Below are positions 10,119 through 58,102 of a stretch of 64,000 bases of DNA, piece after piece. This DNA comes from Malaciobacter molluscorum LMG 25693. GTDB taxonomy: Bacteria; Campylobacterota; Campylobacteria; Campylobacterales; Arcobacteraceae. A model generated the notes under the pieces. It was not told where the DNA came from, did not search any database, and saw nothing but the letters and a program-made list of their open reading frames with translations. Position 1 is the first letter of the stretch. Every line of letters begins with the position of its first letter. A program made the position numbers and the translations under genes. Location: NCBI RefSeq assembly GCF_003544935.1, contig NZ_CP032098.1:1922001-1986000 (forward strand), read 5' to 3'.

Positions 10119-10142
10119 GAAAGCACTTTTCTAAGCGCCTTC

Positions 10143-10331
10143 TTATGAGTGTTTTTTAAGAGTTCTTAACTCTTTTGCAGAAATTCTGATTTTTTTAGTT
10201 GTACCATCTTCTAAAGTAACTCTAACTGTTCTTAAGTTTGGTAAAAATCTTTTTTTAGTTCTGTTTTTAGCGTGGCTCACGTTGTTTCCAACCATTGGCC
10301 CTTTTCCTGAAATTGCACATCTTCTTGCCAT
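10143..10331 (-). CDS. rpmB: 50S ribosomal protein L28
   Basis: 62 residues starting [12 protein letters not shown], the conserved L28 start, followed by [19 protein letters not shown], typical of this basic large-subunit protein. The length matches the short Campylobacterota form. AAGGAAAAA precedes the ATG, and a TATAAT sits about 42 bases upstream. The channel gene follows on the same strand. Confidence 0.97.
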
Positions 10332-10372
10332 ATTTTTTTCCTTCTTAATTTTATAGTGAAAAATATTCGCGT

Positions 10373-10378
10373 ATTATA
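10373..10378 (-). promoter_or_regulatory. -10 box of rpmB
   Basis: Minus-strand GATATAATACGCG contains a perfect TATAAT 42 bases before the rpmB start, in an A/T-rich spacer without a good -35 box, the usual Campylobacterota arrangement. Assignment is by position only. Confidence 0.6.
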
Positions 10379-10417
10379 TCTTAATATTCTTAACTTTTAT
10401 TTAAAATATCTTTTACT

Positions 10418-41487: not shown

Positions 41488-41517
41488 TTTCAAAGTATCA
41501 AAAAACAAGGAGTGAAA

Positions 41518-42576
41518 ATGACAAAAATTATGAAAGGTATAGTATCTAGTGCTGTAGTTGCTTCAGCATTATTTTTTACTGGTTGTGGTGACAATAAAGG
41601 TGACTCACAAGAAACTAAAGCTTCAGCTGACAATAGTAAAAAAACTTATGTACTTAAGTTTTCTCATGTTGTAAGTGCTAACACACCAAAAGGTAAAGCA
41701 GCAGATTATTTTGAAAAAAGATTAGAAGAACTTTCAAATGGACAAATTGATGTTCAAGTTTATCCTTCTTCTCAATTATATAAAGATAATGCTGTATTAA
41801 AAGCTTTAAAATTAGACTCAGTTCAAATGGCAGCACCAAGTTTTTCTAAATTTGGTAAGATTGTTCCTCAATTAGCTTTATTTGATCTTCCATTTTTATT
41901 TAAAGATATAGATCATTTACATAGAGTTCAAGATGGAGAAGTTGGTAAAGAATTAAAATCTATGGTAACAGAAAAAGGATATAAAGCCTTATCATTTTGG
42001 GATAATAACTTTAAACAATTTACATCATCAAAAAAACCTATCTTAATGCCTTCAGATGCAGAAGGTCAAAAATTTAGAATTATGTCATCAAAAGTACTTG
42101 AAGAGCAATTTAAAGCAGTAGGAGCAAGTCCACAAATGATGCCTTTCTCTGAGGTTTATTCTGCATTACAACAAGGTGTAATTGATGCAGCAGAAAATCC
42201 AATTTCAAATATTTATACTAAAAAATTCCATGAAGTACAAAAATATTTAACTATTTCAAATCATGGTTATTTAGGTTACTTAGTTGTAATGAGTGAAAAA
42301 TTCTGGAATTCTTTAACTCCTGAATTACAAAAAGATGTAGAACAAGCGATGAAAGAAGCTACTCAAAAAGAAAGAGAATATGCAAATGAATTAGATAAAG
42401 AGCAATTTGACTTAATCAAAAAATATGCAAAAGAGACTGGAAAATTAGAAATCTTTACACTTAATGATGAGCAAAGAAAAGCTTGGAAAGAAGCTACAAG
42501 TAAAATCTACCCAGACTTTTATGATAAAGATGTAATTGGTAAAGATTTAATTGAGAAAACTCTAGCAACGGAATAA
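41518..42576 (+). CDS. dctP: TRAP transporter substrate-binding protein (DctP family)
   Basis: 352 residues. The N-terminal segment ends in ALFFTGCGD, a lipobox-like sequence, so it may be a lipoprotein rather than a free periplasmic protein. The mature part is DctP-like: FSHVVSANTPKGKAA, FRIMSSKVLEEQF with the ligand-carboxylate Arg, and GVIDAAENPISNIY. It captures a carboxylate for the QM membrane part. I start at the ATG at 41518, five bases after AAGGAG; a GTG two codons before overlaps that site. Confidence 0.9.
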   Translation: MTKIMKGIVSSAVVASALFFTGCGDNKGDSQETKASADNSKKTYVLKFSHVVSANTPKGKAADYFEKRLEELSNGQIDVQVYPSSQLYKDNAVLKALKLDSVQMAAPSFSKFGKIVPQLALFDLPFLFKDIDHLHRVQDGEVGKELKSMVTEKGYKALSFWDNNFKQFTSSKKPILMPSDAEGQKFRIMSSKVLEEQFKAVGASPQMMPFSEVYSALQQGVIDAAENPISNIYTKKFHEVQKYLTISNHGYLGYLVVMSEKFWNSLTPELQKDVEQAMKEATQKEREYANELDKEQFDLIKKYAKETGKLEIFTLNDEQRKAWKEATSKIYPDFYDKDVIGKDLIEKTLATE

Positions 42577-42581
42577 TTATA

Positions 42582-43208
42582 ATGTCAATTTTCAGAATTA
42601 TAAGTAAAATAATTGGACATATAAATCAAAAAATCGCAGTAGTGGGAATCACTGCTGGGGTTGTTGTTGCTTTTGTAAATGTTGTAGCAAGGTATTTATT
42701 TGATGCATCATTTACATGGGCAAGTGAATTGTCTATATCTTTATTTTTATGGAGTGTTTTCTTTGCAGCAGCATATTGCTTTAAAAAAGATGCCCATATT
42801 GCAGTTACAATAGTGCTTGATGCAATGCCATCAAGAATAGCAAAAGTAATGTTAATTATATCTCATCTTGTAACTTTTATTTTTTTATGTGCAGTTGCAT
42901 TTTTTGGATATAAATACTTACTTTTAGTAATTGATTTAGATGAAAGGTCTATTGATCTTTGGAATATGCCAATGTGGATTATTTACTTAGTTATACCTAT
43001 TTCATTCTCTTTTGGAGCATACAGAGTTGCAGAAAGAATTCATGGTATTTTAAGTACAAGTCATGAAAAAATAGTAAAAGAGTCTGAAGCAGAACATGTT
43101 TTAGCAGAAATGGGAATGAATTCAAAAGAGTATAAGGATAATGAGAATTTGCAAAATTTAAGTAAAATGGTTAAAGAAGTAGAGAAAAAAACAGGAGGAA
43201 TGCTATGA
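42582..43208 (+). CDS. dctQ: TRAP transporter small membrane subunit
   Basis: 208 residues with four membrane segments (about 17-37, 48-68, 87-108, 127-147) and a charged C-terminal tail of about 50 residues, longer than usual. NVVARYLFDASFTWASELSISLFLW (parts: NVVARYLFDASFTWA) is the DctQ signature. It scaffolds DctM in the inner membrane. Begins 5 bases after dctP and overlaps dctM by 4 bases. Confidence 0.93.
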   Translation: MSIFRIISKIIGHINQKIAVVGITAGVVVAFVNVVARYLFDASFTWASELSISLFLWSVFFAAAYCFKKDAHIAVTIVLDAMPSRIAKVMLIISHLVTFIFLCAVAFFGYKYLLLVIDLDERSIDLWNMPMWIIYLVIPISFSFGAYRVAERIHGILSTSHEKIVKESEAEHVLAEMGMNSKEYKDNENLQNLSKMVKEVEKKTGGML

Positions 43209-44488
43209 GTATAGCAGTATTATTTGCAATATTTTTCCTTCTAGTTATTCTTGGAACACCTATTGCTATTTGTTTAGGTGGAGCAACATTTGTTACATTA
43301 TTATTATTTACATCAATTTCACCAATTGAAATATCTGCAATGATGTTTGAGAAAGTTGAGCATTATTCACTTATGGCTATTCCAATGTTTATTTTTGCGG
43401 GTAATTTACTAAGTAAAGGTAGTGCCGCACAAAGAATTATTGAATTTGCAAAATCAATAGTTGGACATCTGCCTGGGGGATTACCAATTTCAGCTATTTT
43501 TGCATCTATTATTTTTGCAGCAGTTTCAGGTAGTTCTCCAGCAACAGTTGTAGCTATTGGTTCTATTATGTTTGGTGCTATTATGCAAGCTGGCTATCCA
43601 AAGAAATATGCAGTTGGTACAATTGCAACAGCAGGTTCTTTAGGTATATTAATTCCACCTTCAATTGTATTAATTGTATATGGAGTTACAGCAGAAGTTT
43701 CTATTGGTAAACTATTTATGGCTGGTGTTGTACCTGGTATTATGCTTGGTATTATGTTAATTATTGTTACATATATTGGAGCAAGACGACTTGGTTTTGA
43801 AAAAATAGAGCCTCAACCATTTAAAGTAAGACTTAAGAAGATGAAAGATGCTGCATGGGGTCTTATGACAATTGTGATAGTAATTGGTGGTATTTATGGT
43901 TCAATATTTACACCAACTGAAGCTGCAGCTGCTGCTTGTATGTGGGCATTTTTTGTATCTGTATTTATTTATAGAGATATTAAATTCACTGAACTTTATG
44001 CAACAGCTTTAGAATCAGCAAAAACAACTGCTATGATTATGTTTATTATTGCAAATGCAATGTTATTTGCACACTTTTTAACAATTGAAAATATTCCACA
44101 AATGATTACACAAGCATTAGTGGATGCAAATGTTAATAAATATATGTTCTTATTAATGGTAAACTTGTTATTAATATTAGCAGGTTCATTTATGGAACCA
44201 AGTGCAATTATTATGATTTTAGTACCATTGTTACTTCCTGTTGCAGTAGCATTAGGAATTGATCCTATTCACTTTGGTATTGTAATTACAGTAAATATGG
44301 AATTAGGAATGGTTTCCCCACCTGTTGGGCTTAACCTTTTTGTAACTTCTGGACTTACAGGTATGAGTATAAAAGATGTTATTATTGCAACGTTCCCTTG
44401 GACAATGACAATTTTAGCTGGATTAATAGCTATTACGTATATTCCAGAGATCACGCTATTCCTACCAAACATTATGTATGGAAATTAA
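43205..44488 (+). CDS. dctM: TRAP transporter large membrane subunit
   Basis: 427 residues, 11-12 membrane segments. GTPIAICLGGA, SGSSPATVVAIGSIM, TAGSLGILIPPSIVLIVYG and ELGMVSPPVGLNLFV (the two repeated Na+/substrate elbow motifs) define DctM, the ion-coupled transport channel. With dctP and dctQ it makes a complete Na+-driven importer; C4-dicarboxylate is the default guess. A terminator follows at 44506. Confidence 0.95.
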   Translation: MSIAVLFAIFFLLVILGTPIAICLGGATFVTLLLFTSISPIEISAMMFEKVEHYSLMAIPMFIFAGNLLSKGSAAQRIIEFAKSIVGHLPGGLPISAIFASIIFAAVSGSSPATVVAIGSIMFGAIMQAGYPKKYAVGTIATAGSLGILIPPSIVLIVYGVTAEVSIGKLFMAGVVPGIMLGIMLIIVTYIGARRLGFEKIEPQPFKVRLKKMKDAAWGLMTIVIVIGGIYGSIFTPTEAAAAACMWAFFVSVFIYRDIKFTELYATALESAKTTAMIMFIIANAMLFAHFLTIENIPQMITQALVDANVNKYMFLLMVNLLLILAGSFMEPSAIIMILVPLLLPVAVALGIDPIHFGIVITVNMELGMVSPPVGLNLFVTSGLTGMSIKDVIIATFPWTMTILAGLIAITYIPEITLFLPNIMYGN

Positions 44489-44505: not shown

Positions 44506-44529
44506 AAAATGGGGCTTCTGCCCTATTTT
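44506..44529. terminator. Bidirectional terminator between dctM and the sulfite cluster
   Basis: A 10-bp stem with one G-T pair and a TTCT loop, T-tracts on both sides. It ends dctPQM on the plus strand and, overlapping the stop of the NosL-like gene, the 16-kb minus-strand cluster. Confidence 0.85.
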
Positions 44530-45109
44530 ATCTTTTTTTTAGTAACTCTCTTTTTATCATAGGATTTAGTAAAGTTTCACCTCTTAAGGCAAACTGTTTA
44601 ATTTCCTCAAACTCATAAATTTGTTTTGTTTCTCTTTTGATTTTAAAATTACCTATTTGTTCTTCTATTGTAGATCTTGTCATCGCACTTGTTATTGCAC
44701 CAATTGAAGTCTCATAAGCTCCAAATCCATACCCTAAAGGTGTATTTGCATCTCTTATATACCAAGCAAGCTTTGCATCAATATAAGCGCCTGTATCTGT
44801 TGAATACACATACATTTTAGCTTTGTTTTTAAACTCTTGTCTATCAAGCCATCTTATCATACATCCAACATCATCAAAAAAATATACATTATGATTATAA
44901 ATAACTTGAGCAGAATTTAGATATTTTTTAATCATCATATCACAATCATTACAAATGTATCTATTTTTGTATGTTTCTAATACAACTCTATATGGTGCAT
45001 CTTGCATATAATTATGCTCTACTTTTATATCTTCTCTTGTATCTTTAGAGTAATTATATAAAAATAAAGAGATAATAATTAAAAAAATATATGGTAAAAC
45101 TCTTCTCAT
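44528..45109 (-). CDS. NosL-like copper-site protein, membrane-anchored
   Basis: 193 residues with an N-terminal membrane anchor (about 5-20). CNDCDMMI (53-60) is the CxxCxM copper(I) motif of NosL, Cys83 sits in VYFFDDVGCM, and TPLGYGFGAYE near residue 123 matches the second NosL block. NosL proteins are periplasmic Cu(I) chaperones. As the last gene of the mcc cluster, overlapping the multispan gene upstream, it probably serves copper delivery to MccA. Its role is inferred from family and place. Confidence 0.75.
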   Translation of the reverse strand: MRRVLPYIFLIIISLFLYNYSKDTREDIKVEHNYMQDAPYRVVLETYKNRYICNDCDMMIKKYLNSAQVIYNHNVYFFDDVGCMIRWLDRQEFKNKAKMYVYSTDTGAYIDAKLAWYIRDANTPLGYGFGAYETSIGAITSAMTRSTIEEQIGNFKIKRETKQIYEFEEIKQFALRGETLLNPMIKRELLKKR

Positions 45110-46059
45110 AAAAATACTCCATTTTTAATATAATAAATCACTACAAAATATGTACAAATCAGTGCAAATATGGTATTAAATAATATTGAGTATTTAAATA
45201 GATTAGTTATCTTTTTATTTATTAAAGACTCGATAATATAAGAAGAGATGCCAAAGAAAACTCCAAGAAATAGACTTATCCATATAAAATATCCAACATA
45301 AAAATACTCTTTTTGTAAAATACAAAATGGACATTGATGATTAGGCAAAATATAAATATAAATACTAAAAAAATATGTCACTGAAAAATATGATATAAAC
45401 AAAAAAAGGATATTAAAAAGAAAGCTCAATACAATTTTTTTCAAATATGAAAATATCAATGTAAAACTAAAGATTATATAAAAAGTTATTGCAAGATTAG
45501 ATTGTGTTAATCCAAAAGGTAAAGCATCAGCTTTAAATAGAGTTGAACAGCAAAAAACAGGAACTTTTAAAGGAACATTTACAAAATACAATACTTCAAA
45601 AAATATCTCAAAGAGAATAAGAAACAAAATGAAGTTAAAAAAAAAGTATTTAGATTTTATATATATAAATTTTTTTGATTTAATATCAACTCGATTAATA
45701 ATAAGCCATATTCCCAACATAAAAACTATAAATATTTTGAGTAATAACAAAGCTTCACCATAATCATTTGCACCAATTACACCAGCTATACACATAGCTC
45801 CAGGAACTACATTTGATAGTTCAGATAATGACTTTACAAAAAAGAAAAAGAGTATTATTTTGCAAATAATTGTGAAATTAATTATGGTATTTACTAAATA
45901 GTTTCTTTTTTCTAAAGAATACTGCAAAGAAGTAGTAATACTAAAATTCCAATTTTTTAATATTTTGATTACTGAATATTCACTAATTAGCATCAATATT
46001 ACTAATATTACTTCAATAAAAACAAATACAATAATATCATTTAATAAAAATATATTCAT
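45106..46059 (-). CDS. Polytopic membrane protein with CPFC and CC motifs, unknown
   Basis: 317 residues with about eight membrane segments. Cysteines are notable: Cys90 in GAMCIAG, Cys170-Cys171 in VFCCSTLF, and Cys243/Cys246 in HQCPFCILQ, a CxxC resembling the DsbB/VKOR redox pair. I cannot assign a family. Placed between an ABC ATPase gene (1-base overlap) and a NosL-like gene (4-base overlap), it may hold thiols reduced, pass electrons, or bind copper at the periplasmic face. Confidence 0.6.
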   Translation of the reverse strand: MNIFLLNDIIVFVFIEVILVILMLISEYSVIKILKNWNFSITTSLQYSLEKRNYLVNTIINFTIICKIILFFFFVKSLSELSNVVPGAMCIAGVIGANDYGEALLLLKIFIVFMLGIWLIINRVDIKSKKFIYIKSKYFFFNFILFLILFEIFFEVLYFVNVPLKVPVFCCSTLFKADALPFGLTQSNLAITFYIIFSFTLIFSYLKKIVLSFLFNILFLFISYFSVTYFFSIYIYILPNHQCPFCILQKEYFYVGYFIWISLFLGVFFGISSYIIESLINKKITNLFKYSILFNTIFALICTYFVVIYYIKNGVFL

Positions 46060-46727
46060 TACTCTATCTTTGCATCTTTTATATCTATATATCTATCAAC
46101 AAACTCAAGATTATCAAATAAGCAATCATGTGTTGCAACAATAACAGTCTTTTTAAGCTCTTTAAATTTCTTTAGCATTTCTATAAAAATCAATGAGTTT
46201 GCTTTATCTAAATTCGCAGTTGGTTCATCTGCTAAAATAATTGAGGGATTCATAACAAGTGCTCTTGCAATTGAACATCTTTGTTTCTCTCCTCCACTTA
46301 AGTTTTCTACTTTTTGCTCTTTTTTATGTTCTATATTTGCTATTTTTAAAGCTTGTGTTACTTGCTTTTCAAATTGATTTTTATCTATTTTTTTTAATAC
46401 CAAGGGAGCCATAACATTTTCAAAAGTATTTAATCCAGAAATTAAATTAAATGATTGAAAAATAAAGCCTATTTTTTCATTTCTAAAATTAGAAATATTA
46501 ATATCAGGTAACTTTGCAATATTTTCATTTTCAATTATAATATCACCACTTGTTGGCTTACAAAGTCCTGCAATAATTGATAATAAAGTACTTTTACCAC
46601 TTCCACTTTTCCCTCTTATAATTATAGTTTGAGCCTCTTGTATATCTAAATTGATATTATTTAAAGCAGTAAATTCATTTTGTTTATTTTCATTATATAT
46701 TTTATATAAATTAGTTATTTTTATCAT
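46059..46727 (-). CDS. ABC transporter ATP-binding protein (LolD/MacB type)
   Basis: 222 residues. Walker A GKSGSGKS (39-46), signature LSGGEKQR near residue 139, Walker B IILADEP near residue 159 and a switch His in ATHD. This short ATPase pairs with FtsX-like permeases, and the permease gene is directly upstream with a 4-base overlap. Energy use is probably mechanical, working on a periplasmic partner. In NosDFY systems an ABC module works with NosL; here a related logic is inferred. Confidence 0.9.
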   Translation of the reverse strand: MIKITNLYKIYNENKQNEFTALNNINLDIQEAQTIIIRGKSGSGKSTLLSIIAGLCKPTSGDIIIENENIAKLPDINISNFRNEKIGFIFQSFNLISGLNTFENVMAPLVLKKIDKNQFEKQVTQALKIANIEHKKEQKVENLSGGEKQRCSIARALVMNPSIILADEPTANLDKANSLIFIEMLKKFKELKKTVIVATHDCLFDNLEFVDRYIDIKDAKIE

Positions 46728-47824
46728 TTCATTATCTCACTTATATCTTCAATAGCAACTTTCCATGAGGGGATAATAATAAATGCTAAAAAAGGAATTA
46801 CTGTAAATAAAAAAATCAGAAATAACATTCTAAAATCAACAGTTGGTGTAAAAATTATATTTTCCATTTGTTCACCTAAAAAAATGTTTTTTACTATTGG
46901 TGCATCAAATATAAAAACAAAAATATAAGAAGCCAAAACTCCAATAAAATAAGAGCCTAAAGCAATTACACTATTTTGTATAAATTTTAAAGAGATAATA
47001 TCTTTAATTGAAAAGCCAATACTTCTTAAAATAGCTATTTGTTTTTTTTGCTCTGTTAATACTGAAGATACTTGATTTTTTAATAATATAAAAAATGCCA
47101 GCATCGCAACAATATACAAAATCATAAAGATTCCACCTTTATAATAAAAAATCTGTCGATAATCTGATTGAAGTTGAGATTTACTTATTGCTTTTGTATT
47201 TGGAAAAATATCCATTATTTTTCTTGCTAAAAACTCTACTTCATTATCATTTGGAACATAAACACTAAGATAAGAGTATTGTTCATCATTCATTTGCAAG
47301 ATTTCTCTTGTGACATCACTATTTGCAAAGATTGTATTACTTGAAAATATATTTGAATCAATAACACTTTTTATTTTTTTTGTTAAAGTTCCATCAAGTG
47401 TTAAAAAGTTAAATTCTTTATCATAATGAAATTTTTCAAACAACTGTTTTATATCTTTTGATACTATAATTTCATCATCACTTAGTGAATCATCTGCAAC
47501 TAAATGAATAAGTCTAGAACTTTGAGAAAAGTTATAATAACCATCAACTTTCCCTTGAACATTTTCAACTCCATTTAACTGCAATATTATATTTATGTGG
47601 TTTTCATTTAAAGGAAAGTATTTCCCTGATTTTGTATTTGTAACTATTATTTGGTCATGATTTCCTAAAGTAGATAATAAATCATACTTAATAGAATCAG
47701 ATATAAACAAAACAGCACTTAAAATAAATACAATAAAAGTAAATATTATAAAACTAAAAAAATATTCTGTTTTATCTTTCAATAAAAGCTTAATTGAGTA
47801 ATCAATAAAATTTCTACTTAACAT
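46724..47824 (-). CDS. ABC transporter permease, FtsX/MacB-like
   Basis: 366 residues. One membrane segment near the N-terminus (about 22-44), a periplasmic domain (45-225), then three C-terminal membrane segments, the FtsX/MacB plan. ILRSIGFSIKDIISLKFIQNS (parts: LRSIGFSIKDIISL) is the coupling-helix region. Works with the ATPase next to it. I start at the ATG at 47824, seven bases after AAAGAG; a TTG two codons earlier overlaps less well. The start overlaps the small gene upstream. Confidence 0.85.
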   Translation of the reverse strand: MLSRNFIDYSIKLLLKDKTEYFFSFIIFTFIVFILSAVLFISDSIKYDLLSTLGNHDQIIVTNTKSGKYFPLNENHINIILQLNGVENVQGKVDGYYNFSQSSRLIHLVADDSLSDDEIIVSKDIKQLFEKFHYDKEFNFLTLDGTLTKKIKSVIDSNIFSSNTIFANSDVTREILQMNDEQYSYLSVYVPNDNEVEFLARKIMDIFPNTKAISKSQLQSDYRQIFYYKGGIFMILYIVAMLAFFILLKNQVSSVLTEQKKQIAILRSIGFSIKDIISLKFIQNSVIALGSYFIGVLASYIFVFIFDAPIVKNIFLGEQMENIIFTPTVDFRMLFLIFLFTVIPFLAFIIIPSWKVAIEDISEIMK

Positions 47825-47999
47825 AAACAAACTCTTTATAATCTTTTGATTTAAATATAAAAGATTCTCTTACATATATTTTAGAAGAGTACTCTTTTAG
47901 GTTAGTAAATCTTTTTTCAAAATCAAAACTTTTATAATCTATAAAAGAAATAATAAACAATACAAAGATGATTAAACTCACTTTATAGATAAACCTCAT
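47814..47999 (-). CDS. Small single-span membrane protein, unknown
   Basis: 61 residues: one membrane segment (about 6-20) and a basic-aromatic periplasmic tail. No known family seen. It overlaps the NosL-like gene upstream by 4 bases and the permease by 11, so it is embedded in the operon and is likely expressed. It may be an accessory of the ABC module. Confidence 0.6.
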   Translation of the reverse strand: MRFIYKVSLIIFVLFIISFIDYKSFDFEKRFTNLKEYSSKIYVRESFIFKSKDYKEFVYVK

Positions 48000-49048
48000 T
48001 TTAAATACTCTAATACCTCATCAGTTATTTCACTAAAAAACATAACTTTTTTTCCAAAGTGGTCATTTTTAAAATTATATGCAGCTTGGTCTGATTCAAA
48101 GGCAACTAACTCTTTTCCCATTGGACCATAAACATCAGAACCAATAACATAAAATGCTTTTCTTCCATCAATCTTTTTTGTTGTAAAATAATCACTCACA
48201 TAAATTTCACCAATATTACTTTTGCCTTTTTCAAATACAAATTTCAACATATCTTTTGGCCCATCAAAATAATAATGTTTTTGTTTGTACTCTAACATTG
48301 TTGCCCATTTTGGATATTTATGTACAAACATTCCACAAATCACACATTTTGCATCTTTTGGTACATATATACTTTCTATTTTTCTAATTGTTTTATCTAA
48401 CTTCTTTGTATCCCATAAATAAACAGTCATTGATTGTAACTGTTTATCTTTATTTACTTTGCAAACTTCTTTAAGTTTAGTTTTTAAATCAGTTATAGTT
48501 TTGATATTTTCAATACTTATTTTATTACAATTAGATTCATAAAGTTTTTTTCCTACTTTATAAACTTTCTTTTTCTTTTTTGTATCTAACATAGATAAAT
48601 CTTTTGAAAAATCATTTCTAACTACAACTATCAAATCTTTAAACCTAACTAAATTTCCACCATTTTTACTTATAAAATCCATTGCATCTTTTTTTTGTTT
48701 GAAAGCGTATTTACTATGAAAACTCATTGTTGCTGGCTTATTACTTCCTATTACAAAGAAAGCTTTTTTTGCATCAATAAATTTTAAACTATTTGTATCT
48801 ACTACTTTTATTTCACTATCAAATTTACCTTTTGTTTGTTCATATAAACAATGAATAGAACAGTACTGTCTATTTTTATAAATATAGTTTGTTTTATAAT
48901 GTTTTGGTAAACTCATAGCACAAGAGCTACAATAGTATTTACTACTTCCTTCGTTTATAAAAGTTCCTTTATCTTTATTTATAAATTGAAAACTCTTTGC
49001 AAAAATCAAGCAAGAAAACATTGTAAGAAGTAGTAAATATTTTTTCAT
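47996..49048 (-). CDS. Double NosL-domain protein (MccL-like copper chaperone candidate)
   Basis: 350 residues with a signal peptide (1-17). The first NosL unit has C40-SSC-AM45 and Cys63/Cys67; the second has C235-VIC-GM240 and Met251, followed by YGPMGKELVAF, the NosL closing motif. Between lies a basic stretch (155-200) with Cys174 and Cys196. Thus a tandem duplication of Cu(I)-chaperone domains, periplasmic. Wolinella's mcc cluster includes a NosL-like MccL; this is the best match here. Overlaps its neighbours by 4 bases each. Confidence 0.75.
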   Translation of the reverse strand: MKKYLLLLTMFSCLIFAKSFQFINKDKGTFINEGSSKYYCSSCAMSLPKHYKTNYIYKNRQYCSIHCLYEQTKGKFDSEIKVVDTNSLKFIDAKKAFFVIGSNKPATMSFHSKYAFKQKKDAMDFISKNGGNLVRFKDLIVVVRNDFSKDLSMLDTKKKKKVYKVGKKLYESNCNKISIENIKTITDLKTKLKEVCKVNKDKQLQSMTVYLWDTKKLDKTIRKIESIYVPKDAKCVICGMFVHKYPKWATMLEYKQKHYYFDGPKDMLKFVFEKGKSNIGEIYVSDYFTTKKIDGRKAFYVIGSDVYGPMGKELVAFESDQAAYNFKNDHFGKKVMFFSEITDEVLEYLK

Positions 49049-49893
49049 TTTTCTGCCTTATAATTTTCTAATAATTTATAATTATCACAAGCTAGTTTCA
49101 ATCCTTTGTCACAAGATTTTTTAAATAAATCTTTTGCTTTTATAAAGTCTTGTTTTACACCTAATCCTTTTATATGAAGAACTGCAAGATTGTTACATCC
49201 TTTTAATCCATCTTTACTTTTACACGCTTTTTCATATAAAGAAGCAGCCTTTTTAAAATCTTGTTTTACACCTTTTTTATTTTCATACATATTTCCTAGG
49301 TTTTCACAAGCAATAGATACTCCTGCTTTACACGCTTTTGTGTATAGCTGTATTGCAACATTATAGTTTTGTGATGTACCTCTTGCACTTTCATACATAA
49401 AAGCCAAATTACTACATCCTAATTCATCATAACTATTACAAGACTTTTTATAAAAAGAAAATGCTTTTTTTGTATCTTCTTTTACACCATTTGCACTATC
49501 GTATATTCTTCCAAGGTTATTACAACTTGCTGCATGATTTTGCTTACAAGCTTTTTCATATAAAGTTATTGATTTCTTAATATCCTTTTTTACATCTTTA
49601 GCATTCATATAAATAACACCTAAGTTATAACAAGCTGAAACAAAGTTTTTATTACAAGCCATTTCATAATATTTTATAGCTTTCTTTGTATCTTTTTTTA
49701 TTCCTTTTGAACCCATATATAATACACCCAAGTTATAACAAGCAGAAGCTTTGTTATCTTTAATACAAGCATTTTCATAAATAGATGCAACTTTTTTATG
49801 ATCACCTTTTTTGTGAGCTTCCACACTCTCTTTTATATATCCTGCTTGTAACACAGAAAATAAAATTGTAAATAAAATTAAATATTTCTTCAT
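49045..49893 (-). CDS. Cysteine-rich Sel1-repeat protein (HCP-like), copy 2
   Basis: 282 residues: signal peptide (1-15) then about seven Sel1 repeats of 36 residues, each with a Cys pair (ACYNLGVLYMGSKG, ACNKNFVSACYNLG). The paired cysteines are those that form disulfides in Helicobacter Hcp proteins, secreted or periplasmic scaffolds. I start at the ATG at 49893, after AAGGAG, instead of nine codons earlier. Its neighbour is a paralogue. A role in assembling MccA or its partners is inferred. Confidence 0.8.
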   Translation of the reverse strand: MKKYLILFTILFSVLQAGYIKESVEAHKKGDHKKVASIYENACIKDNKASACYNLGVLYMGSKGIKKDTKKAIKYYEMACNKNFVSACYNLGVIYMNAKDVKKDIKKSITLYEKACKQNHAASCNNLGRIYDSANGVKEDTKKAFSFYKKSCNSYDELGCSNLAFMYESARGTSQNYNVAIQLYTKACKAGVSIACENLGNMYENKKGVKQDFKKAASLYEKACKSKDGLKGCNNLAVLHIKGLGVKQDFIKAKDLFKKSCDKGLKLACDNYKLLENYKAEK

Positions 49894-49903
49894 AATTTCT
49901 CCT

Positions 49904-50740
49904 TTAAAATCCCATATCATCTAACATCAAATACTCCAAACAACTTGCATTATCTCCAAGATTGCAGCCTCTTTCATAAATCTGTTTTGCTTTTATATAG
50001 TTTTGTCTTGTTCCTCTTCCAGTTGCGTGTAAAACTGCAAGTTTATAACACATTGCACTATCTTCTTTATCGCATCCTTCTTTATAAACTTTTAGTAGTT
50101 TTTTATATTCATCAGGATTTGTTGTTGCAATATCTTTAATATAAATATCTACTAATCTAAAGCATGATTCTGTATCTTCTTTATCACAACCTTTTTTATA
50201 CCAAGTTGCAGCACCTTTTGTATCTTTTTGTTTATTTAAAATATTTCCTACTTTATAACAACCTAATAAAAAGCCTTTTTCACATGCAGCTTTATACATA
50301 GTTAAACTTTTTTGTGCATTTTTTTTAGGCTCTAAATAGTATTGGTAAACAGAACCTAAATTGTAACAAGCAAGAGCAAAGCCTCTTTTACAAGATTTAA
50401 AATAATATTTCTCAGCTTTTTTATAATCAGTTTTAAGTTTTAATATTCCACCTTTGTCATAACAAACTCCAACTTTATAGCAAGCTCTTTCATTTCCTAA
50501 ACTACAAGCTTTATCATAAAACTCAAATGCTTTTTTAAAATCTTGTTTTACACTCTGTTTATTTTCATACATAAAACCAACTTTATAACACCCTTCACTA
50601 CTCTTATTTTTACAAGCTTTTTTATAAAATTCAAATGCTTTTTTATATTTTGCATTTGAATATAAACTATCAGCTGTATCAATAGTATTAGCATAAACAA
50701 ATATTGTCGATAATAATAAATATAGTAATAACTTTTTCAT
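49904..50740 (-). CDS. Cysteine-rich Sel1-repeat protein (HCP-like), copy 1
   Basis: 278 residues with a signal peptide (1-17) and about six to seven Sel1 units (YKKAFEFYKKACKN, GCYKVGFMYENKQ, ACYKVGVCYDKGG) each with a conserved Cys pair. Periplasmic, disulfide-linked solenoid by analogy with Hcp proteins. AGGAG precedes the ATG. It lies between the haem lyase gene and its own paralogue, 10 bases from the next start. Substrate or partner unknown. Confidence 0.8.
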   Translation of the reverse strand: MKKLLLYLLLSTIFVYANTIDTADSLYSNAKYKKAFEFYKKACKNKSSEGCYKVGFMYENKQSVKQDFKKAFEFYDKACSLGNERACYKVGVCYDKGGILKLKTDYKKAEKYYFKSCKRGFALACYNLGSVYQYYLEPKKNAQKSLTMYKAACEKGFLLGCYKVGNILNKQKDTKGAATWYKKGCDKEDTESCFRLVDIYIKDIATTNPDEYKKLLKVYKEGCDKEDSAMCYKLAVLHATGRGTRQNYIKAKQIYERGCNLGDNASCLEYLMLDDMGF

Positions 50741-50797: not shown

Positions 50798-53473
50798 CTA
50801 TTTAATAACCTTTACATCCTTTTTAAAGAATGCACTTATACTCACAACTAAAACTATTGCAATTACATAATATACAAAATTTGGCACGGGAACTTTATCT
50901 CCTGATGCATAAGAGTGCATTCCTGATAGATAAAAATTTACTCCAAAATATGTCATGATTATTGAAGAAAACGCAACAACTGATGAAATTAAAAATATAT
51001 AAATACTATTCATTTTTGGAATAAATCTTAAATGCAATACAATCGTATAAACAACAATTGAGATAAAAGACCATGTCTCTTTAGGATCCCAACCCCAATA
51101 TCGTCCCCAACTCTCATTTGCCCAAACTCCACCAACAAAATTTCCTACTGTTAAAAGTGAAATTCCTATAATCAAACTCATTTCTATAATTGCTGCTAAT
51201 TGTCTTATTTGTTGATTTATATCTTCTTCATTATTTTTTGATTTAAATATCATCAAAATTAAAGCAAGAAAAGCCAAAATTGCACCAAATCCTAAAAAAC
51301 CATAGCTTGCAGTAATTACAGATACATGTATACTTAACCAATAAGATTTTAAAACAGGAACCAAAGGTGTAATTTGTGGACTAATAAAATTTAGATGTGC
51401 AACTAACATAATAATTGCACCTAAAATTGAAGATGAAGCTAGGGATAACAAAGATTTACGAAATATAACTAAACCTGCTAAAATTGATGACCATCCAACA
51501 TAAACTAAAGATTCATAAGTATCACTCCAAGGTGCATGACCTGAAACATACCATCTCATCGCTAATCCCAAAGTATGAAAAACAAAACCTAAAAATAATA
51601 AAAGAAAAAACATTTTTTTGATTTTTGGAAAATCTTTTTTTGAAAAAATTGATACTATTGCAAAAAGTAAAGCTACAAAACCAACTAAAAAGTAAAATCC
51701 CATCAAGTTTGGGAATATTTTTAATTTATTAGATAATAATTCTATTTTTGTTTGATAAGTTGAAGGTAATATATCTGAATCAATCTCTCTTTGATTTATT
51801 TTTAATATATCTAAAGCTTCATTTGCTTCTTTCCAGTCATTATTTATAATTCCTTTTGATAAAGCACTTTTATATTTAAATAATGTACTTCTAATAGAAT
51901 CATCCAACCAATATTCATTTATTGCTTCTTGAGGACGGAACCATTTTTTTGAGTTATCAAAAGAGTTTGGAATTATTTTATAAAATATACCAATTGAAGC
52001 TAAATAGTAGATATTTAATCTCTCATCAAGTTTTATTAAATCTTTATCAAAAGTACCTCTTTTTGAAGGCATTTTTTCATTTGCTTCATCTATATATTTA
52101 TTTAATTTATATTTTCCATATTTATCAAATACAAAAGAGAAAGAGATATATTTTTTATCTTTTTTAAGTTTTAGAATATCTTTTATTTTACTATTTCTTA
52201 TTTTGATCAATTCTATATTTTCCCACTGTTTTGGGTCGCTAAATATTCCAAGCATTATTTGAGTTGCAGAAAGATTATACATTGAATCTTTTGATGATAT
52301 TTTATGTAAAACATCAATTGCTTCTGTACCCATTGGTTTTACACGCCCATTAAAATCTTGAACATAAATTTCTGCAAAAGATTTTGAGTGTTCTTTTGTA
52401 TTTTTTCTAAAATTATCTAAATAATCATTTGTTTGTGCATTTGCATAGGTATTAAATAAAAATAAAATTGGCAAAATAATACATAGATTATTTTTTATTA
52501 AAAAAACTCTAAGTCTTTCAAATCTACTTCTTTTAGTAAAAAAGTTTAATACAAATCCTAAAGATAAAAGAAAATAAGCAAAATATGTTGGCCATTTCCC
52601 TGGATCTTTATTTACTGAAAGAATTGTTCCCATTTCATCTCTATCATAAGAAGATTGGAAAAACTTAAATCCTTTGTATGTTAAAGGATTATTCATAAAA
52701 ATTCTATAATCAAAATTTGTATCGTCATCTAATAATGTAACTTCACTTGCATATGATGATGCACTTTTTGAACCTGGATATCTTTGTATTTGAAAATCTC
52801 TTAACTTTATAGAAAATGGAAGTTTTATTATCTTAGAACCCCAAGATAGTTTTATATCTTTTCCATCAACTGAAAAAATAGCTGGTGGCTCTAAATTACC
52901 GTGACCACCATTTATTTGTAAATCTTGTTTTTTATTATCATAACTTACTGTAACAAAAAGATTTTCTACATTTGTTGTTTTTTTAAATTTATAATCTTTA
53001 TATTCAACAACCAAATCTTTATTATCTATTTTATGTATATATTTAAAACTATTGTCACCTATTTTACCAAGGGCTAATGGATGCTCAAATGTTTTATTTT
53101 CAACTTCTATTTGAAAATAAGACTTTTCAGAAATCACTCTATTTTCACTCATATTTTCTCTTATATGAATTACACCTTCATATCCAAAATATCTAGTAAC
53201 TCCTGCTCCTATTAAAACAAATACAAATCCTAAATGAAACAAAAAAGCACCCATTTTTTTATACATTTTTTGTTTAATGATTATTCCAACTAAAGATATA
53301 GTTAATAAAACCATAACAACTTCATACCAAAGTGCATTATAAACTAAAACTTTTGCTGTTTGTGCATCATAATCATTTTCAATAAATGTAGCTACTGCTG
53401 CACCTAAAGCTAATAAAATCAACATTAATATAATAAATTTATATGAAAGAAACACTTTTTTAAAAATATACAT
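50798..53473 (-). CDS. ccsA1: Cytochrome c haem lyase, fused CcsB-CcsA (CcsA1-like)
   Basis: 891 residues: ResB/CcsB part (membrane segments about 14-34, 54-68, 77-95, large periplasmic domain 100-290, segment about 297-315), then a periplasmic linker of about 250 residues and the CcsA part with eight membrane segments from about 590. WANESWGRYWGWDPKETW (parts: WGRYWGWDPKETW) is the WWD haem-binding motif; His-bearing SGHAPWSD and SIHVSVITASYGF surround it. Fused system II lyases occur in Campylobacterota, and one Wolinella isoform is dedicated to the CX15CH haem of MccA. It sits with mccA, so that role is likely. Confidence 0.88.
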   Translation of the reverse strand: MYIFKKVFLSYKFIILMLILLALGAAVATFIENDYDAQTAKVLVYNALWYEVVMVLLTISLVGIIIKQKMYKKMGAFLFHLGFVFVLIGAGVTRYFGYEGVIHIRENMSENRVISEKSYFQIEVENKTFEHPLALGKIGDNSFKYIHKIDNKDLVVEYKDYKFKKTTNVENLFVTVSYDNKKQDLQINGGHGNLEPPAIFSVDGKDIKLSWGSKIIKLPFSIKLRDFQIQRYPGSKSASSYASEVTLLDDDTNFDYRIFMNNPLTYKGFKFFQSSYDRDEMGTILSVNKDPGKWPTYFAYFLLSLGFVLNFFTKRSRFERLRVFLIKNNLCIILPILFLFNTYANAQTNDYLDNFRKNTKEHSKSFAEIYVQDFNGRVKPMGTEAIDVLHKISSKDSMYNLSATQIMLGIFSDPKQWENIELIKIRNSKIKDILKLKKDKKYISFSFVFDKYGKYKLNKYIDEANEKMPSKRGTFDKDLIKLDERLNIYYLASIGIFYKIIPNSFDNSKKWFRPQEAINEYWLDDSIRSTLFKYKSALSKGIINNDWKEANEALDILKINQREIDSDILPSTYQTKIELLSNKLKIFPNLMGFYFLVGFVALLFAIVSIFSKKDFPKIKKMFFLLLFLGFVFHTLGLAMRWYVSGHAPWSDTYESLVYVGWSSILAGLVIFRKSLLSLASSSILGAIIMLVAHLNFISPQITPLVPVLKSYWLSIHVSVITASYGFLGFGAILAFLALILMIFKSKNNEEDINQQIRQLAAIIEMSLIIGISLLTVGNFVGGVWANESWGRYWGWDPKETWSFISIVVYTIVLHLRFIPKMNSIYIFLISSVVAFSSIIMTYFGVNFYLSGMHSYASGDKVPVPNFVYYVIAIVLVVSISAFFKKDVKVIK

Positions 53474-53502: not shown

Positions 53503-54441
53503 CTACACACTAAAAGTTTGACCTGCATAAATAATAAATAGCCGTAAACATAAAACTCCTACAATACTACACATTGCAGAGATATAAAATATGCTATTTG
53601 AATTCTCTTGTTCTTTTTGTGAAAAGTTTAAAATAATTGGTAATAAAAAACCTATACAAACTATTCCTACCCAAAAAACAGTAGACCATGAACCTTCATG
53701 AAATGCAGCTAATGCAATTTTTCCTGCTTCATTTCCTGTTGCAAGAGATATATATAACATTGCTAAAAAAAGTATCTCAATAGCCATAATTGGCCACTCA
53801 ATTTTATGTAAAATTTTCATATCACTTGAGTGTACATTTTCATTAAAAACTCTTTTTGCCATAATACAAAGAGCAGCTGTTCCAGCTGATAATCCTGAGA
53901 TTACAAAAAGTGCTGGCAAGATTGATGTATTTAGCAAGGGGAAACGTACTAAAACAGATATTAAAAAACCTGTATAAGCACAAATCACCACTGCAAATAG
54001 AAACAAAACCCCTTCTAAAACAACTCTAAATTTCAATAATAAATCAACTATTTTTGTCAAAAAAGAAAATCTTTCTTTTACAAAATCTGCAAATGCAAAA
54101 ACAACTGCAACAAAACTCAAAGGGATATAAATCATAAGTGCAGCTACACCAATTGACATTACTGAATTAAAATTGTAATTTATTAAGATTTGCCAGAAAT
54201 TTAAAGGTCTGGTCAAATCACCAACTAAACAAACCATTCCCAATAAAATAGTTACAAAAGCCACTAAAGAAGCAGATTTATATACAGCAGTATTTTCTAT
54301 TTGGTTTTTATAAAATCTAATTAATAAAGCTACAATAATAGCTCCACCTGAAATACCAGCTAAAAGTAAATATACTGATATTGGCCATTCCCAACCTATT
54401 TCTTCAGTAAAACCTGAGCTATAAGTGATTAATTCATTCAT
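53503..54441 (-). CDS. mccD: NrfD-type membrane quinol dehydrogenase subunit
   Basis: 312 residues with about eight membrane segments. EEIGWEWPISVYLLLAGISGGAIIVA (parts: EIGWEWPISVYLLLAGISGG) and LVGDLTRPLNFWQIL near residue 90 are the NrfD/PsrC signature. It takes electrons from menaquinol and passes them to the Fe-S protein. I start at the ATG at 54441, six bases after AGGAG, inside the last codons of mccC. Order mccB-C-D matches Wolinella. Confidence 0.88.
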   Translation of the reverse strand: MNELITYSSGFTEEIGWEWPISVYLLLAGISGGAIIVALLIRFYKNQIENTAVYKSASLVAFVTILLGMVCLVGDLTRPLNFWQILINYNFNSVMSIGVAALMIYIPLSFVAVVFAFADFVKERFSFLTKIVDLLLKFRVVLEGVLFLFAVVICAYTGFLISVLVRFPLLNTSILPALFVISGLSAGTAALCIMAKRVFNENVHSSDMKILHKIEWPIMAIEILFLAMLYISLATGNEAGKIALAAFHEGSWSTVFWVGIVCIGFLLPIILNFSQKEQENSNSIFYISAMCSIVGVLCLRLFIIYAGQTFSV

Positions 54442-55120
54442 CATAAACTCCTGTTTTAAGTTTAGGTATATATCTAAGACTTGGTTTTGTTCCAAATCCT
54501 GGTTTTAACCTAACTGCATCTTTAACATCCAAAATTTTATTTATATATGCTGTTTCATCATTTAAATCACCAAATACTAAAGCATCATATTTACATGACT
54601 CAACACATGCTGGATCTTTACCTTTTGCAAAATTTGTATTTAAACAAAAATTACAATTTTCTGCTGCATTTGTTCTTTCATTTATAAATCTAACATCATA
54701 AGGACAAGCAACAATACAATATTTACAACCTATACATTTATCTATATCCATTGTAACAATATCTGTTATTGAATCTTTATGACATGCACCAGTGGGACAA
54801 ACTTCGGTACATGGAGAATCAATACATTGTTGACAAGATACTCTCATATATTTTTTATGTTGTAAATCATCAGGTTTTGTCTGATCTTCTACATATAATC
54901 TATGTTGATTTTTAGGAACTAAATTTATCTCTTGACAAGCAATTTCACAATCGCTACATCCAACACATTTATTTTGGTCATATATCATTGCATAGTGAGG
55001 TTTTTTATTCTCTTTGTTTGTATTTGCATTAAGCCCATACTGTACACTTCCAAGAAATAAAGAACCTAATCCTATACCTTTAATAAAATTTCTTCTATTA
55101 TTCTCTTTACTACTACTCAT
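54434..55120 (-). CDS. mccC: Tat-exported tetra-Fe-S protein (NrfC/PsrB family)
   Basis: 228 residues. NNRRNFIKGIGLG is a twin-arginine signal. Four cluster motifs follow: CVGCSDCEIACQ, CQQCIDSPCTEVCP, CIGCKYCIVACPY, and CNFC...CVESC. The four-cluster electron-transfer layout fits NrfC/PsrB, linking NrfD-type quinol dehydrogenases to periplasmic enzymes, so it probably carries electrons from MccD to MccA. Start at ATG 55120, seven bases after AGAGGA. Confidence 0.9.
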   Translation of the reverse strand: MSSSKENNRRNFIKGIGLGSLFLGSVQYGLNANTNKENKKPHYAMIYDQNKCVGCSDCEIACQEINLVPKNQHRLYVEDQTKPDDLQHKKYMRVSCQQCIDSPCTEVCPTGACHKDSITDIVTMDIDKCIGCKYCIVACPYDVRFINERTNAAENCNFCLNTNFAKGKDPACVESCKYDALVFGDLNDETAYINKILDVKDAVRLKPGFGTKPSLRYIPKLKTGVYDE

Positions 55121-55137
55121 CACCGTATCCTCTTTTC

Positions 55138-55926
55138 TTATTTAGAAACTTGATTTCCTTGTTTTGTAGTACCATGACCTGACATATCTAAATTAGTTAT
55201 TGCTTTCATTTCACCTGGTTTTAAAACTTTTAGTAATTCAATCTCAAAAACTAAAGTTGAGTTAGGTGGAATATCTCGCATTTGAACATCTTTATATGCT
55301 AACTTACTTGGAATATAAAACTTATATTTTGAACCTGTATGCATTAGCATCAAACCCTCTTTTAACCCATCAATTAAATTAATCATAGATAAATGAGCTG
55401 GTGCTTTTCTAGCATATGTATCATCAAAAACATATCCATCAATTAAAGATGCTTTATAATTCATAATTACAATACTTTCAGGTTTTACACCTTTAGTTTT
55501 TGTATCTTTTAGCACTTCATATTGTAATCCTGATTTTGTAACTTTAACTGTCGATTTTTTTGCATTTTTACTAAGAAACTCTTTTTCTTTTTTTGCATTT
55601 GTCTCTTGCAGTTTTTTTATCTTCGCTTTTTGTGCTTTATTTAAAAGCTCTGCTCTTTTATTTAGATTATCGATAACTTCTGTTTCACTAATTTGTAATT
55701 TTTGTTTTAAAGCATCTTCAAAACCTTTTACAACTAATGCTACATCAACTTTTGCTCCTAATTGAAGCTGCCCATAAATTTGATTATTTATATAATTACC
55801 AGTAGATGCTCCCAAACTATAAGATTGCTTTTGAATATCAGTTTTCAACTCTGTTGAAAAACCTTGCACTGCAATACTTAATATAAGTGGAACAATATAA
55901 CTTAATTTTATTTTTGTTAAGTTCAT
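55138..55926 (-). CDS. mccB: Periplasmic FKBP-type peptidyl-prolyl isomerase
   Basis: 262 residues with a signal peptide (1-24), an FkpA-like N-terminal dimer domain (SYSLGASTGNYINNQ and helices to about 120), then a FKBP domain (VTKSGLQYEVLKDTKTKG, GYVFDDTY, LKEGLMLMHTGSKYKFYIPSKLAY, IPPNSTLVFEIELL, cited in parts). Presumed folding helper for MccA. Its ribosome site AAGGA (55934-55938) can pair with a copy of TCCTT in the preceding hairpin region. Confidence 0.9.
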   Translation of the reverse strand: MNLTKIKLSYIVPLILSIAVQGFSTELKTDIQKQSYSLGASTGNYINNQIYGQLQLGAKVDVALVVKGFEDALKQKLQISETEVIDNLNKRAELLNKAQKAKIKKLQETNAKKEKEFLSKNAKKSTVKVTKSGLQYEVLKDTKTKGVKPESIVIMNYKASLIDGYVFDDTYARKAPAHLSMINLIDGLKEGLMLMHTGSKYKFYIPSKLAYKDVQMRDIPPNSTLVFEIELLKVLKPGEMKAITNLDMSGHGTTKQGNQVSK

Positions 55927-55949: not shown

Positions 55950-55975
55950 AAGGATTACACAAAAGTGTAATCCTT
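55950..55975 (-). promoter_or_regulatory. Intercistronic hairpin between mccA and mccB
   Basis: In mRNA sense a perfect 11-bp stem with a UUUU loop (55975-55965 with 55960-55950), starting 15 bases past the mccA stop, without a following U-tract. Its 3' arm overlaps bases that could instead pair with the mccB ribosome site. Likely a partial terminator, 3'-end stabiliser or translational control element. Confidence 0.65.
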
Positions 55976-55990
55976 TCTTTGATTCAAATA

Positions 55991-58102
55991 CTATTTAGAA
56001 GCTTTTGATAAAATATTTTGAGCTTCTTGAACATATGCTTGTGCAGCTTTTGCTCTTCTTTCTGTATATTTAAATCCATGAACTCCCCATGAACCATCTT
56101 TTTTGATTAAGTCCATAGCTTCTTGAGCTTTTTCAATTAATTCATTAACTCTTGATCTATCTTCAACACTTAATTTTGTTACTTCAAGCATTTCATAGAT
56201 ACCTTTAATAGCAACAGTAACTTCTGAATAGATTTTTTTGATTGGTTTTTGCCAACCTATAACCTCATCATAAATTCTACTTTGATCTTTAAAGTGTAAT
56301 GTTTTTTTCAATTTAGATTGAACGATACTATGACAACCTTTATTATCAATCATATCTTTATCTGCCCATGAAGTTTTACCACAAGCCCACATTAAGTCAA
56401 TATAGTTGTGACCTTCATCATTTTTAGCAATATACCAATCTTTGTATTTTTTAGGTACTGTTTGAACTCTTGGTTGACCTGGAGGTGGGTTAAGAGTTTT
56501 TTTATCAGGACTTACATTGATTTTCCAAATATGTGATCTTCTTTGTGTATCAAAACCAGCATGATCTTGATATTGAACTGCATAGAAATTTTCACAACTC
56601 ATTAAATAAGGCATATGACAACTAGCACAACTTACTTTGCTATGAGTATCTTTTGTATTTTTAACTATTTTTGCAGCTTCTTTGTGACAGCTTGCACATG
56701 ATTTTCTAATTGCAGGTTTTGTATAGAATGAACTTAAATAATCACCAGTATCTTCATATACACCACCTTTTTTAGCAGTAGTTGTAACAACATAACCACT
56801 TACGTCATGAGGGTCATGACAAGTTGTACATCTCATACCTGCTTCATAGTGTGCAGTAAAGTAAGATTGAGAACCTTCAGTACCACAACCAGGACCAGCT
56901 GATTTAAATTTTGAAGTTAATCCAAGTTCAGCAGCTCTTGCTTTTAAGTTTGGATCTTTAGAGTTTCTAAATTTTTCAGCTAAAAATGGTCTAAAACTAA
57001 ATCTTTGGTGACATCTTTCACAGTTAGAAGTTCTAAGCCCTTCTCCACCTTTTAAATGTCCGCCTGCACCGTGGCATTCTTCACATGAAATACCTTTTGA
57101 GATAGTATGTTTTTGTAATGATTTTGAGTTACCTAAATCAGCATAAAATTCTTTTTCTGTTTTATAATCAAATTTCCAAGGGTGACATACTTGACAGTAA
57201 GATGATGCAGCTTGAACAGCCATAGCTTTTTTATACCTTGCAGCATATGAAGCCAAACCTCTTACATAACCTGAGTTTTCACCATGTTCCTCTAATGTCA
57301 CAGGAAAATTAGGAATAAATTTTCTAATTTTTTTAGCAACTTCAGGTGTCAAATCATTTGCCCAAGTTCTTTGAAATTGATTTGAACCAGCAACAACTGT
57401 ACCTGTTCCATCTTTTAATAAACCACCAACAACATGATAAGTTCCTCTTAATAACCAAGCATCAAAATATCCCATTTTTGTTCTAAGATGACCTACGGTA
57501 CAATAGATAGAATCAGGAGTAATTCCTTTTGGTAAGATAGAAGCAGTATCTTTACCAAAAACTGATTTATTTAATTCATTATTTACTTCAGGGTGTTCTC
57601 CTGGGAAACGAATAGTTGAAGAGTGTCTTGATCTGCTCCATTTCTCATATTGTGCAGCATGACACTCTCCACATTTTTCTGGTCCTACAAATTTGTTAGG
57701 AAATACTAACGGATCAGTAGAAGGTAATCTATACATAGTAGAAGTAATTCCTTTTCTTTTACTATATTTTTGAAAATCATTACCATGACCTGCATGTACA
57801 AATTCTTCACCTCTATCAACAACATTCAACTTCCCAACAACTTTACCATTAGGTAAATACGTTGTAAAAATTGGATGATGTTTAAAAATCCAGTCATATC
57901 TTGCTTTTTCTTGGATAACATAGTCTCTTAGTGTAATAACACCACGAGTATCTTTGGTACCTTCGTTTTTAGCAATGATTTCTTGTGCATCTTTACTCAT
58001 TTGAGGTGAGTTGTTATTATGGCTAGATGCAAATGCAATATTAACCATAATGCCAATACATATAAACAAACAAACAAACAGTCTTTTATTTATACTTCTC
58101 AT
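55991..58102 (-). CDS. mccA: Octahaem c-type cytochrome sulfite reductase
   Basis: 703 residues with a signal peptide (cleavage near 25). Haem motifs: CXXCH at 144, 303, 340, 361, 425, 469 and 492, plus CX15CH from Cys574 to Cys590-His591, eight haems in all. Non-haem Cys406 (GPGCGTEG) and Cys503 (LMSCENF) are 97 residues apart, close to the Cys399/Cys495 pair that binds Cu(I) in Wolinella MccA. So the enzyme should reduce sulfite to sulfide in the periplasm. AAGGAG precedes the ATG; it leads the operon. Confidence 0.93.
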   Translation of the reverse strand: MRSINKRLFVCLFICIGIMVNIAFASSHNNNSPQMSKDAQEIIAKNEGTKDTRGVITLRDYVIQEKARYDWIFKHHPIFTTYLPNGKVVGKLNVVDRGEEFVHAGHGNDFQKYSKRKGITSTMYRLPSTDPLVFPNKFVGPEKCGECHAAQYEKWSRSRHSSTIRFPGEHPEVNNELNKSVFGKDTASILPKGITPDSIYCTVGHLRTKMGYFDAWLLRGTYHVVGGLLKDGTGTVVAGSNQFQRTWANDLTPEVAKKIRKFIPNFPVTLEEHGENSGYVRGLASYAARYKKAMAVQAASSYCQVCHPWKFDYKTEKEFYADLGNSKSLQKHTISKGISCEECHGAGGHLKGGEGLRTSNCERCHQRFSFRPFLAEKFRNSKDPNLKARAAELGLTSKFKSAGPGCGTEGSQSYFTAHYEAGMRCTTCHDPHDVSGYVVTTTAKKGGVYEDTGDYLSSFYTKPAIRKSCASCHKEAAKIVKNTKDTHSKVSCASCHMPYLMSCENFYAVQYQDHAGFDTQRRSHIWKINVSPDKKTLNPPPGQPRVQTVPKKYKDWYIAKNDEGHNYIDLMWACGKTSWADKDMIDNKGCHSIVQSKLKKTLHFKDQSRIYDEVIGWQKPIKKIYSEVTVAIKGIYEMLEVTKLSVEDRSRVNELIEKAQEAMDLIKKDGSWGVHGFKYTERRAKAAQAYVQEAQNILSKASK

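Follow-up and report, generated by a model that had tools for sequence, protein, structure and literature searches.

A NosL and ABC transporter gene block at the end of the mcc operon of Malaciobacter molluscorum, a candidate copper-site maturation module for MccA

We analysed a 64,000-nt window of the Malaciobacter molluscorum LMG 25693 genome (NZ_CP032098.1, positions 1,922,001-1,986,000; coordinates below are positions in this window), in which a block of 6 open reading frames (ORFs) on the minus strand, 44528-49048, forms the 3' end of an mcc operon. This operon starts with a two-component gene pair and mccA, and mccB, mccC, mccD and the cytochrome c haem lyase gene ccsA1 follow 3' of mccA in the same direction (Table 1). 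The block encodes, in this order, a double NosL-domain protein, a small membrane protein, an ABC permease, its ATPase, a Cys-rich multispan protein and a terminal NosL protein, for which we use the probable names MccG to MccL, the letters being counted onward from ccsA1. A preliminary description made from the letters alone had given 6 genes in one direction that overlap by 1 to 11 bases, and the ORFs confirm this layout together with its limits. The double NosL and 61-residue (aa) genes share 4 bases, the 61-aa and permease genes 11 with the ATG start at 47824 (17 if TTG 47830 is used), the permease and ATPase genes 4, the ATPase and multispan genes 1, and the multispan and terminal NosL genes 4. 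The same description had placed the block downstream of mccA, which is right as to direction but not as to adjacency, with 6 genes (mccB, mccC, mccD, ccsA1 and 2 Sel1-repeat genes) lying between.

The MccA of the window matches the solved Wolinella succinogenes MccA (4rkm) over its entire length and carries 7 CXXCH haem sites and one C-X15-CH site. It also conserves the Cys equivalent to C411 and C507 of the W. succinogenes ORF; the copper ligands of MccA are Cys399 and Cys495. From its sequence, the protein is an octahaem MccA with the CX15CH site and 2 putative copper-ligand Cys. MccA is a haem-copper enzyme (PMC7558416).

The mcc gene cluster of W. succinogenes was published in 2011 by Kern, Klotz and Simon, as cited in PMC6976685. 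A Wolinella-like genome (G167, locus L067), with an MccA that agrees with 4rkm in numbering and a putative mccB masked by a competing ORF call, shows the order mccA, mccC, mccD, ccsA1, HemJ-like, Sel1, double NosL, 62-aa protein, permease, ATPase, 317-aa protein and NosL. Because this cluster closes with the same 6 genes in identical order, the block of the window is part of the known mcc operon, and the suggestion that the set had not been described in this form has to be withdrawn. Furthermore, the full gene order is kept across genera and families, which excludes an arrangement by chance, and ccsA1 is present in every mcc cluster read. In W. succinogenes, MccL was reportedly studied as a putative copper chaperone in a 2019 paper. 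The operon is thus already known; new are its place within a broader family of modules, the loss from MccL of the copper motif, and MccK as a Cys-rich family without a fold match. The window differs from the Wolinella-like cluster in having 2 Sel1 genes and no HemJ-like (UPF0093) gene, and in a terminal NosL that keeps the CXXCXM motif which its Wolinella-like counterpart lacks. The HemJ-like gene (PF03653) of L067 lies between ccsA1 and Sel1 at 9024-9557, and in locus L068 a HemJ-sized and a radical-SAM gene occupy this place (9370-11165); the window has none of these.

Two NosL proteins, one of them with a double domain, had been proposed, and Pfam NosL recognises both: the double protein at 142.9 bits, in 2 stretches, and the terminal one at 29.1 bits (E 1.4e-6), against a cut-off of 24. 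The double protein also matches the NosL structures 7og7 and 7osf-7osj by phmmer. NosL is a Cu(I) chaperone, and clade II members bind Cu(I) through CXXCXM (PMC6530538). The window holds 3 such sites, CSSCAM at 40 and CVICGM at 235 in the double NosL and CNDCDM at 53 in the terminal one. One or two CXXCXM sites occur in the double NosL of all 28 mcc-type blocks counted, while the terminal NosL keeps its site in Arcobacter and in S. arcachonense and relatives, and all non-mcc terminal NosLs in the alignment keep at least CXM. By eye, no lipobox is evident in the NosLs of the window; the double protein has a signal-like N-terminus and the terminal one a membrane anchor. In 2 Campylobacter concisus-like loci (L079, L081), the double NosL is replaced by 2 ORFs of about 190 and 152 aa, the second alone recognisable as a NosL.

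The proposed MacB/Lol-type ABC transporter is borne out. The permease contains the Pfam FtsX C-terminal domain (E 9e-11) and shows the organization of type VII ABC systems, namely an FtsX domain, a long first helix, a periplasmic domain and 3 more transmembrane helices. Its AlphaFold2 (AF2) model, with a pLDDT of 84, matches LolE, LolC, MacB and HrtB (best Foldseek E 4.7e-14), and a profile search matches LolC. The ATPase is LolD-like, LolD being its best NCBIfam family at 205 bits (cut-off 308). The block shares this permease fold and ATPase type with LolCDE, MacB, HrtBA and FtsEX, but it scores below the Lol equivalog cut-offs (22 bits against 362 for the permease), has a single permease gene and goes together with NosL genes and copper enzymes. 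Neither Pfam nor PHROGs gave a match for the 61-aa or the 317-aa protein. Most mcc clusters, and locus L048, have a homologue of the 61-aa protein at the corresponding position, with 61-65 aa, and the homologues of other blocks have about 80-105 aa.

The description of the 317-aa protein, MccK, as a cysteine-rich multispan protein is also confirmed, with 8 predicted transmembrane helices (AF2 model, pLDDT 88) and 5 invariant Cys. In a 26-sequence alignment, C90, C170, C171, H241, C243 and C246 are invariant, which includes a CC and a CPxC motif. The 3 loops holding these residues are predicted to be periplasmic because they alternate with loops of net positive charge, a modest signal under the positive-inside rule. 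Foldseek returned no PDB match for MccK at E<=0.001, and VIA-align returned helical-bundle matches only, over residues 1-165, which is not proof of a new fold. No VKOR-, DsbB- or DsbD-like match was found for MccK.

Next, we compared the distribution of the block with that of mccA in 249 Campylobacteria genomes. There, MccA occurs in two forms, a long, Wolinella-type one scoring at least about 985 bits (41 genomes) and a short one scoring at most 660 bits except in one fragmentary case (36 genomes). Close relatives of the permease, taken at E <= 1e-100 (the next best match has 4e-63), are present in 43 genomes: in all 41 with the long-type mccA, in none of the 36 with the short type, and in 2 of the 208 without the long type. 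This co-occurrence has a Fisher p of 6e-45, a value that overstates independence since the genomes are related. In one exception, the Sulfurospirillum-like G056 (L047), the mcc cluster lacks mccAB, has a shortened mccC ORF and stands beside transposase-like ORFs; in the other, G217 (L048), the block lies within a nos cluster, 3' of nosF. A single clade unites the mcc blocks in the MccK tree (33 rows, 98/96; the 2 rows marked 'other' represent truncated contigs on which mcc genes are neighbours), showing a single origin of the mcc-type block, and the sister of this clade consists of 4 nos-embedded blocks.

The module is nevertheless wider than the mcc operon. MccK is present in 87 of the 249 genomes, and 44 of them carry only a divergent module, 24 with nosZ and 20 with neither nosZ nor the long-type mccA. 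A scan of genome contigs placed all or nearly all of the best 80 of 362 MccK loci in Campylobacterota, judged by title or by how similar the block is. Of 31 genomes, 12 have a block no more than 25 kb from nosZ, where 0.8 would be expected; in locus L188 the order is nosF-nosL-tm-permease-ATPase-MccK-nosY-nosL, and in Sulfurospirillum the module sits inside the nos operon alongside complete NosFY. Some non-mcc modules are linked to a DsbD_2 gene or placed among housekeeping genes, and genome G206 has paralogous modules dedicated to different loci. The window genome (G000) itself carries a second, non-mcc block (permease-ATPase-MccK-NosL-DsbD_2) by cobalamin-type genes (L050, C1:1551000-1570999) and a separate second double NosL gene at about 817.6-818.6 kb (L049), with no match to nosZ in this genome. 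The specificity for mccA that the preliminary description proposed therefore holds for the mcc clade and fails for the broad set, for which an mccA-only role is rejected given the divergent copies in 44 genomes.

These divergent copies, near or inside nos loci, show a general module which is neither mccA-specific nor a variant of NosDFYL, the nitrous oxide reductase system to which the block had been compared. Both have a NosL-family protein and an ABC ATPase and permease near a periplasmic copper enzyme, but the permease of the block has the FtsX/LolC/MacB fold and not that of NosY, there is an extra multispan Cys protein, and no gene for the NosD beta-helix protein lies in the window between 44528 and 58102. 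At nos loci, moreover, the module stands beside a complete NosDFYL with a separate true NosY. A variant of NosDFYL is rejected on these grounds, and the likeness comes down to NosL. In Sulfurospirillum cavolei, the nos cluster contains an insertion of five genes, among them those of an ABC permease and an ATPase, to which no function was given (PMC4794192). It lies between nosL and nosY, the same place as the paralogous module of G206; it is a nos-linked, more distant paralogue which was not linked to mcc in that paper.

Altogether, we consider it reasonably probable that the block serves the mcc operon as its copper-site maturation module, loading copper into MccA. Copper is suggested as the substrate by NosL homology and by the 2 associated copper enzymes. 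In the order of transfer that we infer, MccA would be exported and receive its haems, with CcsA1 attaching the special CX15CH haem, before Cu(I) is set between the 2 Cys next to this haem. The exported double NosL would bind Cu(I) at CXXCXM and deliver it to a complex in the membrane made up of the permease, the ATPase, the small membrane protein and the 8-helix MccK, whose periplasmic Cys/His could be a Cu(I) docking or relay site or could keep the ligands reduced. ATP hydrolysis might drive, through the LolC/MacB-type permease, a periplasmic mechanical stroke that pushes Cu(I) into apo-MccA; Cys conservation in MccK and the fold class of the permease point to these last 2 steps. The candidates for placing a single Cu(I) beside a covalent haem in MccA would thus be the double NosL as carrier and MccK as membrane partner.

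Several observations weigh against this assignment. Of 27 terminal NosLs from mcc clusters, 22 are without CXXCXM (Wolinella-like, Campylobacter and most Sulfurospirillum), and CXM itself is lost from the terminal NosL of most mcc clusters. Since the double NosL keeps its motif, it is likely to be the copper carrier in most mcc systems, and MccL, with the motif lost there, is unlikely to be the carrier in Wolinella-like organisms. Additionally, Aliarcobacter-like genomes have the permease, ATPase and MccK genes without a neighbouring NosL gene, and 20 genomes have the module with neither nosZ nor Wolinella-type mccA, an occurrence which the preliminary description had named as evidence against its proposal and which concerns the broad set and not the mcc clade. 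Finally, no double NosL relative is detectable in 32 of the 36 short-type genomes, although the ligand Cys are kept in the 5 short sequences read, so that such a copper site may not need the module, unless short MccA binds no copper.

Other functions would fit parts of the same evidence. The block could instead be a thiol or redox module, in which disulfide reduction, or the export or handling of a reductant, by the ABC transporter and MccK keeps the haem and copper cysteines of MccA, and those of NosZ, reduced, with the NosLs as partners. The 5 invariant MccK Cys with their CC and CPxC motifs, the DsbD_2-family neighbour of many non-mcc copies, the CXXC pairs of the double NosL and the Cys-rich metal sites of both targets agree with this, but none of the mcc clusters read has the DsbD_2 gene, no match of MccK to the thiol-redox families named above was found, and the motifs are specifically the copper motif of clade II NosL; we regard it as unlikely. 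A role in haem handling, with an HrtB-like permease supplying or clearing haem for the CX15CH site together with CcsA1, would agree with HrtBA being among the permease fold matches (TM-score up to 0.59) and with the block ending an operon that includes ccsA1. LolE and MacB are, however, better matches by E-value, short-type clusters have a CcsA-type lyase and the C-X15-CH site without the block, and the block also accompanies nosZ and NosL, with copper as the common factor, which makes this role improbable.

An equally improbable function is lipoprotein release, by a LolCDE-like complex that would free lipoproteins, of NosL type or others, from the inner membrane. LolD as the best ATPase family and LolE/LolC as the best permease fold speak for it; against it speak the NosLs of the window, in which no lipobox is evident by eye, the single permease gene, and an ATPase and a permease that score far under their Lol equivalog cut-offs (205 bits against 308, and 22 against 362). 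The least probable of these alternatives, in our estimate, is a general periplasmic copper homeostasis or detoxification system that stands at mcc and nos loci merely through joint induction. The 20 genomes with the module and without either enzyme gene would suit it, as would the second module of the window genome, in which nosZ has no match, but modules of mcc type group in one clade that goes with mccA, and the G206 paralogues are dedicated to different loci.

If copper-site maturation is the function, the block looks like a reusable copper-loading kit, judging from the sister copies beside or inside the nos genes of relatives. It is possible, though we put this forward only tentatively, that Campylobacterota have a second, general copper-site assembly machine, made of a double NosL, a LolC/MacB-type ABC transporter and an 8-helix MccK with periplasmic Cys/His, with paralogues for MccA, NosZ and others, which would act beside NosDFYL and insert metal by ATP-driven periplasmic mechanical force. 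Such a second assembly module, overlooked so far at many nos loci of Campylobacterota, would bear on nitrous oxide removal.

The short-type mccA genes have neighbours of their own, one gene for a rhodanese/multihaem/cytochrome b561 protein and one for a CcsA-type haem lyase. In 5 such loci (L082-L086, in G046, G214, G175, G016 and G172), the short MccA gene is next to a rhodanese-multihaem-cytochrome b561 fusion, with no NosL/ABC block. Loss of the copper Cys as the explanation for the absence of the block in this type was rejected, as both ligand Cys columns and the C-X15-CH site are conserved in the 5 sequences read. The short MccA homologue is possibly a different sulfur-oxyanion reductase. 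A search of plasmids for MccA gave no match. S. arcachonense, whose block is the second closest to that of the window, encodes mccA yet was reported to be unable to use sulfite (PMC4794192).

Table 1. Genes and features of the mcc operon in the window, listed from its 5' end
Feature	Position	Strand	Basis
Histidine kinase and response regulator	58319-59749 and 59739-60428	-	ORFs; most mcc clusters read have the pair 5' of mccA
mccA, octahaem haem-copper sulfite reductase	55991-58102	-	phmmer to 4rkm, 1045 bits
mccB, FKBP-type peptidyl-prolyl isomerase	55138-55926	-	Pfam FKBP_C and FKBP_N
mccC, ferredoxin-like Fe-S protein	54434-55123	-	4Fe-4S cysteine motifs in ORF; synteny
mccD, NrfD-like quinol dehydrogenase subunit	53503-54495	-	NCBIfam TIGR03148, E 1.5e-75, under cut-off
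CcsA1-type cytochrome c haem lyase (CcsB/CcsA fusion)	50798-53473	-	NCBIfam TIGR03144, 175 bits (cut-off 188)
Sel1-repeat protein, paralogue	49904-50740	-	Pfam Sel1, 4 stretches
Sel1-repeat protein	49045-49920	-	Pfam Sel1, 6 stretches; 4-base overlap with double NosL gene
Double NosL-domain protein, 350 aa, probably MccG	47996-49048	-	Pfam NosL, E 9e-42, 2 stretches
Single-span membrane protein, 61 aa, probably MccH	47814-47999	-	ORF
FtsX/LolC/MacB-type ABC permease, probably MccI	46724-47824	-	Pfam FtsX; ATG start, TTG 47830 possible
LolD-like ABC ATPase, probably MccJ	46059-46727	-	Pfam ABC_tran, E 5.5e-36
Cys-rich protein with 8 predicted transmembrane helices, 317 aa, probably MccK	45106-46059	-	26-sequence alignment; AF2 model
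Terminal NosL, 193 aa, N-terminal membrane anchor, probably MccL	44528-45109	-	Pfam NosL
Terminator-like hairpin directly 3' of the last gene	44506-44529	.	Pattern scan; alone says nothing on function

Two further features of the locus were observed. On the plus strand, at 41512-44488, genes for a TRAP-type transporter (its binding protein and the small and the large membrane subunit) converge on the end of the mcc operon. Between mccA and mccB, a strong stem-loop of 11 pairs is present at 55950-55975, and those mccA-mccB gaps of loci L068-L079 and L081 that have a foldable length also form a stem-loop, of different sequence and in the same place. This structure perhaps stabilises or attenuates the transcript, giving more MccA than maturation proteins.

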